In this document: positions 32,061 through 38,372 of the stretch, piece by piece
Position numbering within the stretch: the first letter of the stretch is position 1
How the letters are laid out: the number at the start of each line of letters is the position of its first letter
From: Halobium salinum
Lineage (GTDB): Archaea > Halobacteriota > Halobacteria > Halobacteriales > Haloferacaceae
Direction of reading: 5' to 3'
DNA length: 64,000 nucleotides
Assembly (NCBI RefSeq): GCF_026586625.1
Contig: NZ_JAODIW010000006.1
Coordinates: 143,408 to 207,407 of the forward strand
Made by a program: the position numbers and the translations under genes
Notes under the pieces: model-generated
Told to the model about the DNA's origin: nothing
Seen by the model: the letters and a program-made list of their open reading frames with translations, nothing else
Database searches by the model: none

Positions 32061-33092
32061 TTACTCCGGCTTCAGGCCGCCGTCCTGCACGCGCATGATG
32101 CCTTCACCGTCGGCGAGGTTCGGCGCGTCCACGAGGCGCACGATACGCTTGTCACCCTTCGACTTCCGCAGGTAGATGCGGAACGTCGAGGTGTGGCCCA
32201 GGATGTTCCCGCCGATGGGCTGGGTCGGGTCGCCGAAGTACGAGTCGGGGTTGGAGGCGACCTGGTTCGTCACGAGCACGACCGTGTTGTAGAGGTCGCC
32301 GATGCGCATCAGGTCGTGGAGGTGCTTGTTGAGCTTCTGCTGGCGTTCGGCGAGCTCACCACGGCCCACGTACTCCGCGCGGAAGTGCGCCGTCAGCGAG
32401 TCCACACAGAGCAGGCGCACCGGCCACTCGCCGTCCTCGTGCTCGCTGGCGAGTTCCTTGGCCTTCTCCGCGAGGAGAATCTGGTGGTTCGAGTTGAACG
32501 CCTTCGCGACGTGAATCTTGTCGAGGAAGGAAGCGAGCAGTTCGTCCATCGCCTCCTCGCTGTCGGGCGTCCCCTCGATTTCGCGCTGGTCCATCGTCGC
32601 CTGCAGAATCTCGTCGTCGAGGCCGCGCACCATGTCGTCGATGCGCTCCGGGCGGAACGTGTCCTCGGAGTCGACGAAGATGCAGGACCCCTCGAGGCCG
32701 CCGTGCTCGGAGGGAAGCTGGACGTTGACGGCCATCTGGTGGGTCACCTGGGACTTCCCGGCACCGAACTCGCCGTACACTTCGGTGATGGACTGGGTCT
32801 CGAGCCCGCCGCCGAGCAGGTCGTCCAGCTCGTCGATCTGCCAGCTGAGCTTGCCGATCTGTTCGCGTCGTTCGAGCACCATCGTCCCGGTCTCGAAGCC
32901 GCCGATGTCGGCGGCCTTCCGCGCGGCGCGGATGATGTCGCCGGCGGTGGACTCGCCGATGTCCGCCGTGTTGGAGAGCTCGGCGGGGCTCGCGACGGCG
33001 ATACTCTGGTAGCTGTCGAAGCCCGCTTCCACGAGCTTGTCTTCGGTTGCGGGGCCGACTCCGGGGAGACTTTCGAGGTCGTCGTCTGCCAT
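32061..33092 (-). CDS. radA: RadA recombinase
   Basis: The archaeal Rad51/RecA homologue that forms filaments on single-stranded DNA and performs strand exchange in recombinational repair. The 343-residue product has an N-terminal helix-hairpin-helix DNA-binding domain ([17 protein letters not shown], about 9-25), Walker A GEFGAGKS at 107-114, Walker [12 protein letters not shown] and the L2 region around [16 protein letters not shown]. No intein is present. The promoter is clear: a TATA-like CTTTATC at 33118-33125 and a GGAGGT Shine-Dalgarno motif (33097-33102) just before the ATG. Confidence 0.98.
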
Positions 33093-33347: not shown

Positions 33348-33953
33348 TTACTCCCACGGGTGGCCGCCGTCGCGGTCCGGCCACAGCGGGTACCAGTACT
33401 GCTCGTCGTCTTCGACGGAGAGCTCCCCGTCGAGCACCGACCGGAGCTTGAACTCGAGACGTTGGTCGCGGTCGTGGCCGCGCTCCGGCGCGAAGGGGTA
33501 GTACGCACCGCGACGGAAGGAGTAGACCCAGTACGCCTTGGAGTCACGACGTTCGAAGCCGAATACCGCCGCGAGGAGCCGGGAGCCGTAGCCGCGTTCG
33601 ACGAACTCGTCGGCGGCGAAGTGGACGCTCGTCACGAGGTCCTCGGGGTCGCTGTCCTCCAGGACGACCCACTGGTAGCCGTGGTCGTCCTCGTGGAGGC
33701 GAAAGGTCGTCCCCGTCTCCTCGGCGCCGGCCTCCAGAATCTCGGCGACGCCCTCCACCGTCTCCGCGAAGTCCGTGCTGTCGACGTTCGAGAAACAGAG
33801 CGCGGCGGCGCCGACGGAGGCGAAGTCGAGGTCGGCCTCCATCGTCAGGTAGGCGGTGCTCATCCCGAACAGGTCCTCCGGGTCGGCGTCGCGTGTCGCG
33901 TCCGCCTCCGCGCGCGTGCCGAACACCGACCGCAGGGAGTCGAAGATGCCCAT
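33348..33953 (-). CDS. pspAB: PspA-associated protein PspAB
   Basis: A 201-residue protein starting MGIFDSLRSVFGTRAEADAT, which matches the haloarchaeal PspAB family, named for its genetic association with PspA (phage-shock/membrane-stress protein). It is soluble and acidic, with an alpha/beta body and an aromatic-rich C-terminal part (YWVYSFRRGAYYPF, YWYPLWPDRDGG). It is the last gene of a same-strand run that includes three M48 membrane proteases; only five nt separate it from the preceding membrane-protein gene. A role in membrane stress is inferred from this context and family naming; biochemical function is unknown. Confidence 0.85.
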   Translation of the reverse strand: MGIFDSLRSVFGTRAEADATRDADPEDLFGMSTAYLTMEADLDFASVGAAALCFSNVDSTDFAETVEGVAEILEAGAEETGTTFRLHEDDHGYQWVVLEDSDPEDLVTSVHFAADEFVERGYGSRLLAAVFGFERRDSKAYWVYSFRRGAYYPFAPERGHDRDQRLEFKLRSVLDGELSVEDDEQYWYPLWPDRDGGHPWE

Positions 33954-33958
33954 ACCCC

Positions 33959-34378
33959 TCAGTCGTCCCGCCGCGTCTTAGGTGGTTTCCACTCCGTCCG
34001 ACGCGACCGGCCCGACGCGCCCACCCGTTCGGCCTCACGCGTTCGACTCGACGACCCCGGCCGCCGCGACCGCCCGGGGAGGCGCCCCCGGAGGCGGAAC
34101 GACGCCCACGCCGGCGCGCCGTCCACACCGACGGCCGCCCGGTACCGGGTCACCGCTCGGACCGCCGGGTAGCTCGCGGCCAGCAGGACCATCGAGGCCA
34201 CGAGCGCGCCGAAGCCGAACACGAACGTCCGACCGCCACCTCGCGAGAGCCGCGTCGAGCGTCGGGCCAGCGCCAGCCCGACCACCGCCGGCGCCGCGAC
34301 GAGGGCGGCGACGACGGAGCTCTCGCGCCGTATCCGCGCGAGCCCGCGGACCGGGTCCGGTCGTCGTGTCGAGGTCAC
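33959..34378 (-). CDS. Small membrane protein in the htpX-pspAB run
   Basis: A 139-residue protein from a GTG start at 34378 (VTSTRRPDPVRGLARIRRES). Two hydrophobic helices lie at about 21-38 and 50-70; the termini are very basic and Arg/Ser-rich, so the tail is probably disordered and cytoplasmic. I recognise no family. It sits between the second accessory M48 protease gene and pspAB, with gaps of 62 and 5 nt, and is presumably co-transcribed with them. Confidence 0.55.
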   Translation of the reverse strand: MTSTRRPDPVRGLARIRRESSVVAALVAAPAVVGLALARRSTRLSRGGGRTFVFGFGALVASMVLLAASYPAVRAVTRYRAAVGVDGAPAWASFRLRGRLPGRSRRPGSSSRTREAERVGASGRSRRTEWKPPKTRRDD

Positions 34379-34440
34379 GTCACGGACACGCCGACGCGAA
34401 GGAAAATGTCTGACGGTTCGTGCGACCGCGTGTCACGCCG

Positions 34441-35352
34441 CTATCGGACGGATTCGGCGTCGCGCTCCATCGCCCGCAGTCGCTCCACCCGCGCCTCGGT
34501 CGGCGGGTGGAGCGCCGGGAAGAAGGGGAGCCAGTCGCCGGAGGGGACGACACAGAAGGCGTGCATCGCCGTCAGGCTCCGCGCGTCTCGGTTCGGTCGA
34601 CGCGTCGTCTCCCGTTCCCCTCCGTCGAGGCGACGCAACGCCGACGCCAACGACGTCGGGTCGCCCGTAATCGCCACGGCCCCGCGGTCGGCGGCGAACT
34701 CGCGGTACCGGGAGAGCACGACGACGGCGGCGACACTGGCGAGAAAGAGGGCCCCGCCGGCGAGGAACACGACGCCCCCGACGAACGCCGTGTTCCGACC
34801 GCTTTTCGACCAGAAGCTCGCGTCGTTCAGGAAGGCGAGACCGAACGCCACGAGGAGAAGCGCTACCGTCGTCGGGAACGCCGCGACGGTCATCACCAGC
34901 GCGTCGGCGTTCTTGACGTGCGCCAACTCGTGGGCGAGCACGGCGTCCTGTTCTTCCGGCGGAAGCTCCCGAAGGAAGCCGAGCGTGACGAACACGACGG
35001 CGTCGTCCCCGGAACCGGCGGTGAAGGCGTTCGGCTCGTCGGTCGGCACCACGGCGAGCCCCGGCGTCGACACGTCGGCCTGTCTCGACAGCCGTTCGAG
35101 CCGAGCGTACAGGTTCGGGTACTCCGTCCGCGACAGTCCCATCGCCCTGCTGGTCCACAGCGCGAGGCGGTGGCCCTGCGAGAGCAGGAACAGCAGACCG
35201 AGGCCGAGGAGGACGCCGACGACGAACGCGACGACCGGCGAGCCGTAGTACCACAGGGGCACCACGAGCGCCGCGTAGCCGACGAGCACCAGTACGCCCG
35301 AGAGGGCCATCCGGAGGAGGAGCGACCGGTCGCGGACGGGAACGGCGGACAT
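34441..35352 (-). CDS. M48 family membrane metalloprotease (HtpX-like), third in run
   Basis: A 303-residue integral membrane protease. The zinc motif H141-E-L-A-H145 is intact and the third ligand Glu is in YREFAADRGAV. Two N-terminal helices (about 12-33, 39-58), then helices on both sides of the middle domain, give the HtpX topology with the active site on the cytoplasmic face. HtpX enzymes degrade damaged membrane proteins. It is a paralogue of the adjacent M48 genes; the gap to the upstream one is 64 nt. Confidence 0.9.
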   Translation of the reverse strand: MSAVPVRDRSLLLRMALSGVLVLVGYAALVVPLWYYGSPVVAFVVGVLLGLGLLFLLSQGHRLALWTSRAMGLSRTEYPNLYARLERLSRQADVSTPGLAVVPTDEPNAFTAGSGDDAVVFVTLGFLRELPPEEQDAVLAHELAHVKNADALVMTVAAFPTTVALLLVAFGLAFLNDASFWSKSGRNTAFVGGVVFLAGGALFLASVAAVVVLSRYREFAADRGAVAITGDPTSLASALRRLDGGERETTRRPNRDARSLTAMHAFCVVPSGDWLPFFPALHPPTEARVERLRAMERDAESVR

Positions 35353-35416
35353 CTCGACCCCACTCGTCGCCGGGGGTGAATGAGTGTGTCGCCGACGCGA
35401 CGGCCACCGAGACTGA

Positions 35417-36304
35417 CTACCGCGTCTCCAGGTCGCGCTCCAGCGCCCGCAGCCGTTCGATTCGCTTCCCGACCGGCGGATGCATCCACGGAACCCCGCG
35501 GCCCCCCGGCGGGGCGATACAGAACGCGCCGACGGGGCCGAGCCGCCGCAGGTCGGTGTCGGGACGCCCCTCGGCGCCGTCGAGGCGGCGGAGGGCGGCG
35601 GCGAGCGCGCCGGGGTCTCCGGTCGTCAGGGCGGCCGCGCGGTCGGCCCGGTACTCGCGACTCCGGGAGACGAGCGCCACGAGCGGGGCGCCGACGCAGA
35701 CGAGCGCGAGGCCGACAGGGACGACGTAGACGCCGGCGAAGAGAAGGAGGCCGAACAGCCGGAACGCCTCGCCGGCCGCCCACCACAGGCCGCTCCACCA
35801 GCCGCGGAGCAGCCCCCGTCCCGCGACGTACGGGAGCGCGAGCGCCGTCAGGAGCGTTCCGTCGAGGTTCTTGACGTGAGCCGACTCGTGGGCGAGTACG
35901 GCGGCGAGTTCCGCCGTGGGAAGCGTCTCCAGCAGTCCGGTCGTCACGCAGACGGTCGCACCCGTTCCGCCGCCGACGGTGAAGGCGTTGAGTTCGTCGC
36001 TGTCGACGACGGCGAGCTCCGGGAGGCGGGCGTCGGTCCCCCGCGCGAGGCGGCGCATCACGCCGACGAATCGGGGGTACTCCCCCGCCTCGACGCGTCG
36101 GGCGTCGACGGCGCGGAGCACGAGGGCCGGCGTCGCGAGCGTCGCGAGGACGGCGCCGACGAGGAGGAAGGAGGCGGCGACGAGCCGGGCGCTCAGGTGG
36201 CCGCGGACGCCGTAGACGACGGCGACGACGAGGTAGCCGAGGCAGGTCAGGACGAGGGCCCTGAGTGCGGTCGCCCGCAGCCCGGTGTCGTCGTGGAGGC
36301 CCAT
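35417..36304 (-). CDS. M48 family membrane metalloprotease, second in run
   Basis: A 295-residue paralogue. Its zinc motif is H139-E-S-A-H143, with Ser where the others have Leu, and the downstream Glu ligand lies in EYRADRAAAL, so catalysis should be possible. It has two N-terminal helices and a third hydrophobic pair in the middle (about 160-205). It differs from HtpX proper in lacking the longer glycine-rich loop. It is 118 nt downstream of htpX on the same strand. Confidence 0.88.
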   Translation of the reverse strand: MGLHDDTGLRATALRALVLTCLGYLVVAVVYGVRGHLSARLVAASFLLVGAVLATLATPALVLRAVDARRVEAGEYPRFVGVMRRLARGTDARLPELAVVDSDELNAFTVGGGTGATVCVTTGLLETLPTAELAAVLAHESAHVKNLDGTLLTALALPYVAGRGLLRGWWSGLWWAAGEAFRLFGLLLFAGVYVVPVGLALVCVGAPLVALVSRSREYRADRAAALTTGDPGALAAALRRLDGAEGRPDTDLRRLGPVGAFCIAPPGGRGVPWMHPPVGKRIERLRALERDLETR

Positions 36305-36343
36305 CGAGTACGACTGCCGCCGCGGAGGAGATGAGTGTTCCGT

Positions 36344-36395
36344 CGGTCGGTTCGGCCTGCTCGGCGCGTCGGTCGGTTCGGCTTGCTCGGTGCGT
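36344..36395. repeat. Two tandem copies of a 26-bp unit
   Basis: 36344-36369 and 36370-36395 match at 24 of 26 positions, both beginning CGGTCGGTTCGGC; a partial third copy follows. The repeat fills the spacer between htpX and the next M48 gene. Confidence 0.85.
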
Positions 36396-36422
36396 GGTCG
36401 GTCCAGCTACCCAGTACGCAAC

Positions 36423-37292
36423 TCAGCGCGTCTCCATCTCGCGCTCTAGCGCCTGCAGGCGCTCGATGCGCTTCTCGGTCGAGGGGTGCGTCGAGGCGAG
36501 CTTCCCGATGAAGCCGCTGCGGATGGGGATGATGAAGAACGCGTTCATCTCCGCCTGTTCGCGCATGTCCTCCTTCGGGACCTGGCTCATCCGGCCGTCT
36601 ATCTTCATCAGCGCCGACGCCAGCGCACCCGGGTCGCCGGTGATGGTCGCCCCGCCGCGGTCCGCGGAGAACTCGCGGTAGCGCGACAGTGCACGGATGA
36701 GGAAGAACGATACGATCCACACCGCGAGCGAGGCCACGATGGCGACGATGACGCCGCCGCCCTGTCGGTCGCGGCCGCCGCCGCCGAAGAACGCGCCCCA
36801 GCGGACGACCATGAACGCGATGGTCGACAGGAACGAGGCGATGGTCATCACCGCGACGTCGCGGTTCTTGATGTGCGCCAACTCGTGGGCCAGCACGCCC
36901 TCCAACTCGTCGCGGTCGAGCGTCTGCATGATGCCCGTCGTGACACAGACCGCGGACTTCTTCTGGGACCGACCGGTCGCGAACGCGTTTGGCACCCGGG
37001 AGTCCGCGACCGCGACTTTGGGTTTGGGGAGGTCGGCCTGCTGGCTCAGGCGTTCGACCATCCGGTGAAGCTCGGGATACTCGTCGGGGCTCACCTCCTT
37101 CGCGCCCATCGAGTACAGCGCGAGCTTGTCGCTGAAGAAGAACTGGGCGAACAGGAACGGCACCATGAGGACGAGGAACCCCACGTACTGGGTCTGCGAG
37201 ATGACCGCCGCGAAGACCAGGTACAGGGCGAACAGCAGGAACATGGTGAGCGCCATGCGCCCGCGGAGTCCCCAGTCCGGTTTCCACTGCAT
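36423..37292 (-). CDS. htpX: HtpX, membrane-bound zinc protease
   Basis: A 289-residue M48B protease for quality control of membrane proteins. H136-E-L-A-H140 and Glu-207 (YREFSADRGG) form the zinc site. Two N-terminal helices (about 13-31, 38-54) and two central ones (about 147-168, 180-200) match the family, with a glycine-rich loop GGGGRDRQGGG between the central pair. It is the first of five same-strand genes ending in pspAB. A palindrome (37320-37342) overlaps the upstream edge of its TATA-like GTTTATG, which is centred 27 nt before the ATG. Confidence 0.93.
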   Translation of the reverse strand: MQWKPDWGLRGRMALTMFLLFALYLVFAAVISQTQYVGFLVLMVPFLFAQFFFSDKLALYSMGAKEVSPDEYPELHRMVERLSQQADLPKPKVAVADSRVPNAFATGRSQKKSAVCVTTGIMQTLDRDELEGVLAHELAHIKNRDVAVMTIASFLSTIAFMVVRWGAFFGGGGRDRQGGGVIVAIVASLAVWIVSFFLIRALSRYREFSADRGGATITGDPGALASALMKIDGRMSQVPKEDMREQAEMNAFFIIPIRSGFIGKLASTHPSTEKRIERLQALEREMETR

Positions 37293-37315: not shown

Positions 37316-37342
37316 CATAAACACTTACTTCTGGTAAGTGTT
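37316..37342 (-). promoter_or_regulatory. Palindromic operator overlapping the htpX promoter
   Basis: AACACTTAC (37320-37328) and GTAAGTGTT (37334-37342) are perfect 9-bp inverted arms separated by five bases. On the minus strand the TATA-like GTTTATG (37316-37322) overlaps the proximal arm, so a bound protein would cover the TATA/BRE region and block initiation of htpX. The epimerase start is 56 nt away on the other side. Confidence 0.65.
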
Positions 37343-37397
37343 GACACGGGCCTCCGGAGAACCGGCTTTCTTCTCCCGTCGGTCCGTCGCCGACGAC

Positions 37398-38372
37398 GTG
37401 TCACCCACCACCGCCGACCGCCCCACCGCGCTCGTCACGGGCGGCCTCGGTCGCTCCGGCCGCTGGATAGCCGACCGACTCGCCGGCGACTACGACGTGG
37501 TCTGCGTCGACCGGAACCAGCCGGGGTTCGAGGTCCCGGAGCGCCCGCACGTCGACTTCCGGGCCGTCGACCTCACCGACCGCGGGGCGACGTTCGACCT
37601 CGTCGGCGACCTCGACCCGGACGCCGTCGTCCACTGGGCCGCCATCCCCTCACCCACCCGCCACGCCGGCGGCGAGGTGTTCGAGACCAACACCCTCGCG
37701 ACGTACAACGTCCTCGTCGCCGCCGGCCGCGCCGGCGCCCGGGTCGTGCAGGCCTCCTCGGAGTCGGCGTACGGCTTCCCGTTCGCTGAGGAGACTCCAC
37801 TGCCCGACTTCCTCCCCGTCACCGAGAGTCACCCGTGCCGCCCCGAGGACCCTTACGGGCTCTCGAAGGTCGTCGGCGAGGAGACCGCGGAGTCGGTGGT
37901 CCGCCGGTACGGCGTCCCCGTCGTGTCGGTTCGGCCCTCCTGGATTCAGTACCCCGGCGAGTACGCGTGCCGGTCGCTGCCAAGCGTCGAGGCGGTCACC
38001 GCAACCGACTCGTCCGCGGACCTCGACCGCGAGGCGCTCGCCGCGGGAGCGGGCAACTGCTGGTCGTACGTCGACGTCCGGGACGTGGCCGACCTCGTCG
38101 CGGCGGCCCTCGACGCGCCGCCCGAAGACGACGCCGGCGAGGCGACCCACGAGGCGGTCCACGCCGCCGCCGCCGACACCTACCTCGGCGTCCCGACCGC
38201 CGAGGCCGTCGAGGCGTACTTCGGCCGCCTGCCCGAGGACTGCACGCTCGAGGGGGAGGCGTCGGCGCTGTCGACCGCGAAGGCCGCGGCGCTGTTCGAC
38301 TGGTCACCCGCTCACGTCTGGCGGGAGGCCGCGGACGAGTCGGTGCTGGAGCCGTCGCTACTGGCCGAGTGA
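37398..38372 (+). CDS. NAD-dependent epimerase/dehydratase
   Basis: A 324-residue extended short-chain dehydrogenase. The dinucleotide-binding motif TGGLGRSG is at about 14-21, an Asp at the end of strand 2 (VVCVDRNQP) favours NAD, and the catalytic Y-x3-K is YGLSK at about 157-161, with a preceding Ser triplet (QASSESAYG). Such enzymes interconvert nucleotide sugars. GTG 37398 (VSPTTADRPTAL) is the most reasonable start. It is divergent from htpX. Confidence 0.88.
   Translation: MSPTTADRPTALVTGGLGRSGRWIADRLAGDYDVVCVDRNQPGFEVPERPHVDFRAVDLTDRGATFDLVGDLDPDAVVHWAAIPSPTRHAGGEVFETNTLATYNVLVAAGRAGARVVQASSESAYGFPFAEETPLPDFLPVTESHPCRPEDPYGLSKVVGEETAESVVRRYGVPVVSVRPSWIQYPGEYACRSLPSVEAVTATDSSADLDREALAAGAGNCWSYVDVRDVADLVAAALDAPPEDDAGEATHEAVHAAAADTYLGVPTAEAVEAYFGRLPEDCTLEGEASALSTAKAAALFDWSPAHVWREAADESVLEPSLLAE

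Follow-up and report, generated by a model that had tools for sequence, protein, structure and literature searches.

The locus that runs from htpX to pspAB in the 64,000-nt stretch of DNA analysed here (the window) is probably an old htpX–pspAB gene pair, followed by radA, that has been widened by lineage-specific paralogues of the M48 protease family and in which a small open reading frame (ORF) represents the stump of another M48 copy. The htpX–pspAB pair is a real and old gene pair of archaea (and some bacteria), and the extra M48 genes are a sporadic, lineage-specific addition to it.

As shown in Table 1, the genes lie on the minus strand in the transcription order htpX, M48b, M48c, small ORF, pspAB and radA, and the gaps along the run from htpX to pspAB are 118, 64, 62 and 5 nt; all four gaps agree with the initial annotation, which had placed these five genes on the same strand at such distances. 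The products of htpX, M48b and M48c all exceed the cut-off of the Pfam model Peptidase_M48 (PF01435), with E-values of 1.4e-41, 1e-23 and 3.4e-24, respectively. However, of the three only the first passes the NCBIfam equivalog model for HtpX (PRK02391), with 468.5 bits against a curated cut-off of 341, and M48b (150.2 bits) and M48c (223.6 bits) stay below it. Of the seven M48 genes in the host genome (4.46 Mb, 14 contigs), only these three form a cluster. A gene for an NAD-dependent epimerase/dehydratase (37338–38372, plus strand) is divergent from htpX and recurs in genera g2, g7, g10, g14, g18, g22, g27 and g28. At the other end, radA, which the initial annotation did not mention, directly follows pspAB in most family genera and in a second family as well, a persistent pairing of a recombinase with an envelope gene; radA probably has no part in what the locus does.

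Table 1. Genes and promoter-like elements of the htpX–pspAB locus (positions in the window; p-values from the position-weight scan).
Feature	Coordinates	Strand	Description
htpX	36423..37292	-	289 aa, HELAH, 4 predicted TM; canonical haloarchaeal HtpX (M48)
M48b	35417..36304	-	295 aa, HESAH; second M48 protease, clade apart from htpX
M48c	34441..35352	-	303 aa, HELAH; third M48 protease, same clade as M48b
Small ORF	33959..34378	-	139 aa, GTG start, two hydrophobic stretches
pspAB	33348..33953	-	201 aa, soluble alpha/beta protein
radA	32061..33092	-	NCBIfam TIGR02236, E 3e-151; kept 3′ neighbour of pspAB
TTTAT box of htpX	37318..37322	-	-30..-26; p 0.001
ACACTCATC, possible TATA-like element of M48b	36330..36338	-	p 0.17, not significant alone
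ACACTCATT, possible TATA-like element of M48c	35379..35387	-	p 0.04
CATTTT before small ORF	34403..34408	-	-30 of GTG; p 0.013
CCTAA before pspAB	33978..33982	-	-29..-25, within the 3′ end of the small ORF; p 0.07

Of the 148 family genomes sampled, 147 encode PspAB, as do all 129 good ones. When the places of pspAB were paired with those of M48 genes and 60 loci were read, htpX was located on the same strand 5′ of pspAB in 24 of 28 family genera (a count in which g19 was left without a pairing), mostly with a spacing of 0 to 120 nt. Outside this sample, named genomes were scanned with M48c as the sole query, which gave 80 loci, nearly all of them true htpX; a same-strand pspAB lies downstream in 72, within 120 nt in 42 of these, and the range of these loci covers many Halobacteria, Methanosarcina, Methanothrix, Methanolobus, Methanococcoides, Methanoperedens, ANME-1 Methanophagales and one Moorella MAG. 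As the named loci were picked without regard to PspAB, biased sampling does not explain the adjacency, and because it recurs in 24 genera of the family and again outside it, the arrangement is beyond chance. The functional link between HtpX and PspAB that had been suggested gains support from this same-strand adjacency, kept in Halobacteria, Methanosarcinales, ANME-1 and the Moorella MAG, and from the start of pspAB, which abuts or overlaps the htpX stop in several genera. The adjacency is not required, since htpX and pspAB lie apart in g3, g13 (30 genomes) and g21 and are unlinked in the Halorubrum and Natrialba named loci; relatives in which pspAB is distant from M48 genes, which the initial annotation had named as evidence against its reading, do therefore occur, but only as a minority.

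The pspAB product matches the PspAB family (PF22742) with an E-value of 7e-76 and 254.7 bits (curated cut-off 27) over positions 1–189 of 189, and its sequence is conserved down to methanogens; Y141, Y152, P153, P156, E167, E177 and E181 are among its conserved residues. It was confidently modelled (pLDDT 85.9, pTM 0.83) as a soluble protein of alpha/beta fold whose core is ferredoxin-like and whose N-terminal helix is poorly predicted. A comparison with PDB sequences gave no match, and a search for a structural relative that might hint at function, using Foldseek and VIA-align, returned only general ferredoxin-like arrangements, the best of them a designed protein with a Z-score of 7.9; the lack of a match is no evidence in itself. 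The name of the protein had been taken as an argument for an association with the membrane-stress protein PspA. This argument does not carry over to the locus: there is no pspA gene in the neighbourhood, and the two PspA genes of the host genome (G000) are located at C11:812050 and C13:720014, whereas pspAB is at C11:176761, so that they are 635 kb away or on another contig. Because the pspA genes are this far from pspAB, the name lends no support to a link with PspA here. PspAB adjoins HtpX across archaea and in one bacterium, and not PspA in this genome; the name may thus mislead, and PspAB merits testing as a partner of HtpX.

The distribution of the extra M48 genes is much narrower. A profile was built from seven sequences, namely those of the host genome G000, G069 (three copies), and G021 and G043 (one each); in the 148 family genomes it matched only these four genomes, with 401–458 bits, values that are high by construction, since the seven matched proteins are the profile's own query. 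The next-best matches were htpX genes, with at most 274 bits. All extra M48 genes of the family sit between htpX and pspAB, where they occur in 4 of 148 genomes as one, two or three copies. The dedicated protease trio proposed at the outset is not supported by these numbers. At locus L065 of G069, htpX is followed by three extra M48 genes and then pspAB, and that genome has 14 M48 genes in all. Across the order (392 genomes), where an M48 protein was assigned to the clade if it scored better on the extra-M48 profile than on the htpX profile, the clade was found in about 20 genomes (another 17 or so beyond the family), in eight of them within the htpX–pspAB gap and in the rest elsewhere. In a second family (f4), five genomes again have extra-M48 relatives between htpX and pspAB; the order in g87 of this family is htpX, M48, a 268-aa gene, pspAB and radA, like that of the window, and in g62 htpX lies some 3 kb further upstream. 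A 268-aa soluble protein is encoded between the extra M48 gene and pspAB at three f4 loci (L223–L225, three genomes). In family f7, the M48 genes of the clade are located elsewhere and are unlinked to pspAB.

In the phylogenetic tree, all extra M48 proteins fall in one clade separate from htpX with a support of 96, although the branches are long and the joining of the window's M48b and M48c to this clade is less sure than the support value. The branches of the extra M48 proteins are many times longer than those of htpX. M48b groups with paralogues of g10 and g22, the window's htpX clusters with htpX of g22 relatives, and M48c is 51% identical to the paralogue at the same position in G069. The residues H141, E142, H145 and E218, which are the HExxH motif and the third-ligand Glu, are invariant in the seven aligned paralogues and are readable in htpX as well. 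Between G021 and G043, dN/dS is 0.32 for the extra M48 gene and 0.14 for htpX, so selection on the former, as estimated from these sequences, is weaker than on htpX yet still keeps the protein.

These observations also bear on whether the gap between htpX and pspAB is simply a place that tolerates any insertion, with M48 copies there only because tandem duplication is easy. Other genera do have unrelated genes in it, at loci L054, L057, L066, L063, L077 and L078: a SHOCT membrane protein, a LURP-one-like protein, RmuC, a 442-aa membrane protein on the opposite strand, a threonine-rich repeat protein and a kinase-like protein. Such unrelated genes speak for genomic clutter. However, this explanation is somewhat unlikely, since the M48 clade is confined to this gap in the window's family and is found there again in the second family, and since its catalytic residues are all invariant and dN/dS is below 1. 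A two-TM SHOCT protein is encoded between M48 and pspAB in G028, G044, G060 and two Halococcus loci.

The small ORF is most likely, as judged from its sequence, a stump left from the 3′ half of another M48 copy, with no function of its own. Its residues 13–90 (34109–34342) match positions 141–224 of the extra-M48 HMM with 29.8 bits (E 4.7e-8), whereas the top score among 2000 shuffles of the ORF was 6.8 bits and the top unrelated protein reached 10.3 bits; BLASTP against the neighbouring M48c gives an E-value of 7e-6, and the strongest single match is the G069 paralogue. From the second half of HELAH (RGLAR in the ORF), the match extends through TM3 and TM4; the stretch with the third-ligand Glu is missing, and all zinc ligands are lost. 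About 140 residues of the M48 N-terminal half are absent, and the N-terminal helices with them, and the ORF lies only 62 nt from M48c. A search of the family with the small ORF gave only weak matches, several of them inside M48 or htpX genes, which led to the stump reading. Neither the 148 family genomes nor the gaps of 24 loci contained a relative of the ORF, and no M48 stumps were found when the gaps of other genomes were searched for them. The initial annotation had proposed a small membrane protein as an unrecognised partner in the module; what it had seen is homologous to TM3–TM4 of the neighbouring M48 proteins, with every zinc ligand gone. A conserved small membrane protein was accordingly rejected as an identity, as only weak matches were obtained, several in M48 or htpX genes. 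The ORF was likewise rejected as a SHOCT protein of the kind encoded in the gaps of G028, G044 and G060, since it has no Pfam match and no SHOCT match. The stump reading removes the small membrane protein as a false lead.

Against the stump reading, the frame of the small ORF remains open, begins with GTG, shows a GC3 signal and is preceded by a TATA-like box, so that it may yet yield a product. GC by codon position is 0.76/0.69/0.87, with the GC3 signal running through most of the frame, which suggests that the sequence was or is coding. Catalytically dead rhomboid-like proteins are known to bind proteases or substrates, and by analogy the small ORF might encode a working pseudoprotease that retains both C-terminal M48 helices and associates with HtpX-type proteases or with the substrates of these. 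This would account for the 139 open codons, for the excess of GC3 over GC2 through most of the ORF, for CATTTT at -30 of the GTG and for the TM segments preserved in the homologous part. It is nevertheless a very unlikely explanation: there is no relative in the 148 family genomes or the 24 gaps, GC at codon position 2 is unusually high and peaks in the last third, the tail is very basic (+22) in a proteome that is otherwise acidic and halophilic, and this tail extends into the putative pspAB promoter.

Leaderless genes are frequent in haloarchaea, and their TATA-like box lies 25–30 nt upstream of the start codon. Since TATA-like boxes are found at leaderless distance before the genes of the locus (Table 1), separate, leaderless starts for each gene are likely from the sequence, although the genes may also share a transcript. 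By position-weight score, the boxes of htpX, the small ORF and M48c stand out, and those of pspAB and M48b do not; a promoter for M48b was not accepted from this score alone. A TTT(A) box is present at -30..-26 in 50 of 52 htpX upstream regions. The extra M48 genes of the window, G069 and G043 are preceded by AACACTnAT or a similar motif, and those of f4 have TCATAAG or TTCATTAG in the box position. The pspAB gene has such a box when it is separated from htpX, and lacks it when its start codon adjoins the htpX stop. In the window, the CCTAA of pspAB is part of GTGGAAACnACCTAA (33975–33989), which is kept in relatives; this element is also readable as the M48 C-terminus VETT followed by a stop, and in g22 it is the end of the last M48 gene. 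It is common to species of g10 and g22, including G009, G054 and G059, which have no extra M48 gene. Either a retained promoter or the remnant of an M48 end would be compatible with this distribution of GTGGAAACnACCTAA.

The single strand and short gaps, the conserved adjacency of htpX and pspAB and the extra M48 genes in the same gap in two families are all features that could be expected of a dedicated envelope-stress operon along the lines of the initial annotation, in which PspAB, the three proteases and a small subunit in the membrane are co-transcribed and form one complex. Such an operon is quite unlikely here, because the number of extra M48 genes varies (0, 1, 2 or 3) among close relatives, the presumed small subunit appears to be an M48 stump that no other genome has, a TATA-like box lies before each gene and pspA is not nearby.

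HtpX proteases are zinc enzymes of the cytoplasmic membrane whose active site faces the cytosol, where they cleave membrane proteins that are misfolded or damaged (archaeal data in PMC9263693). From its family, the HtpX of the window would be expected to do the same. The constant adjacency of pspAB to htpX makes an adaptor or regulator role for PspAB plausible; the soluble PspAB would most likely work directly with HtpX on the cytosolic side, as an adaptor, a substrate selector or a regulator. M48b and M48c, which keep the catalytic residues, probably have different or more variable substrates in the membrane and would widen the substrate set in some lineages. With the locus read as an old pair widened by paralogues, the small-ORF stump would have no role. 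A more speculative form of this model, and a long shot, is that the M48 paralogues are fast-diverging proteases that share PspAB as adaptor and whose substrates are gained and lost between species, with the small ORF as a retained pseudoprotease tuning them. Species with one to four M48 copies at one place offer a natural comparison for the growth and decay of a protease set.

Tandem membrane-protease paralogues or pseudoproteases are a general kind of arrangement, and the locus resembles such sets in having several active copies (as predicted here) beside one without catalytic residues. Unlike kept pseudoproteases, the dead copy of the window is a short stump without conserved relatives and looks like decay. 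Compared with E. coli HtpX and with HVO_0102 and others of Haloferax volcanii (PMC9263693), the window's htpX shares the four TM segments, the HExxH motif, the downstream Glu and the pass of the curated model, whereas M48b and M48c are far below the HtpX cut-off and form a separate, faster clade. A literature search on HVO_0102/HVO_0103 and on archaeal M48 tandem copies gave no paper on the pair. The occurrence of PspAB with a membrane-associated metallopeptidase has already been described (Ravi et al. 2024, mSystems, PMC11237479), in a system of PspA-PspAA, a metallopeptidase and PspAB with an occasional SHOCT-like gene. The window shares with this system an M48 membrane protease gene that adjoins a same-strand pspAB, and a SHOCT gene between M48 and pspAB is shared by relatives only, with none found in the small ORF or the htpX–pspAB gap of the window; in contrast to that system, the window locus is without pspA and SHOCT and contains extra M48 genes and an M48 stump. 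The htpX–pspAB pair is therefore already known, and the extra M48 genes and the stump in its gap are new here.
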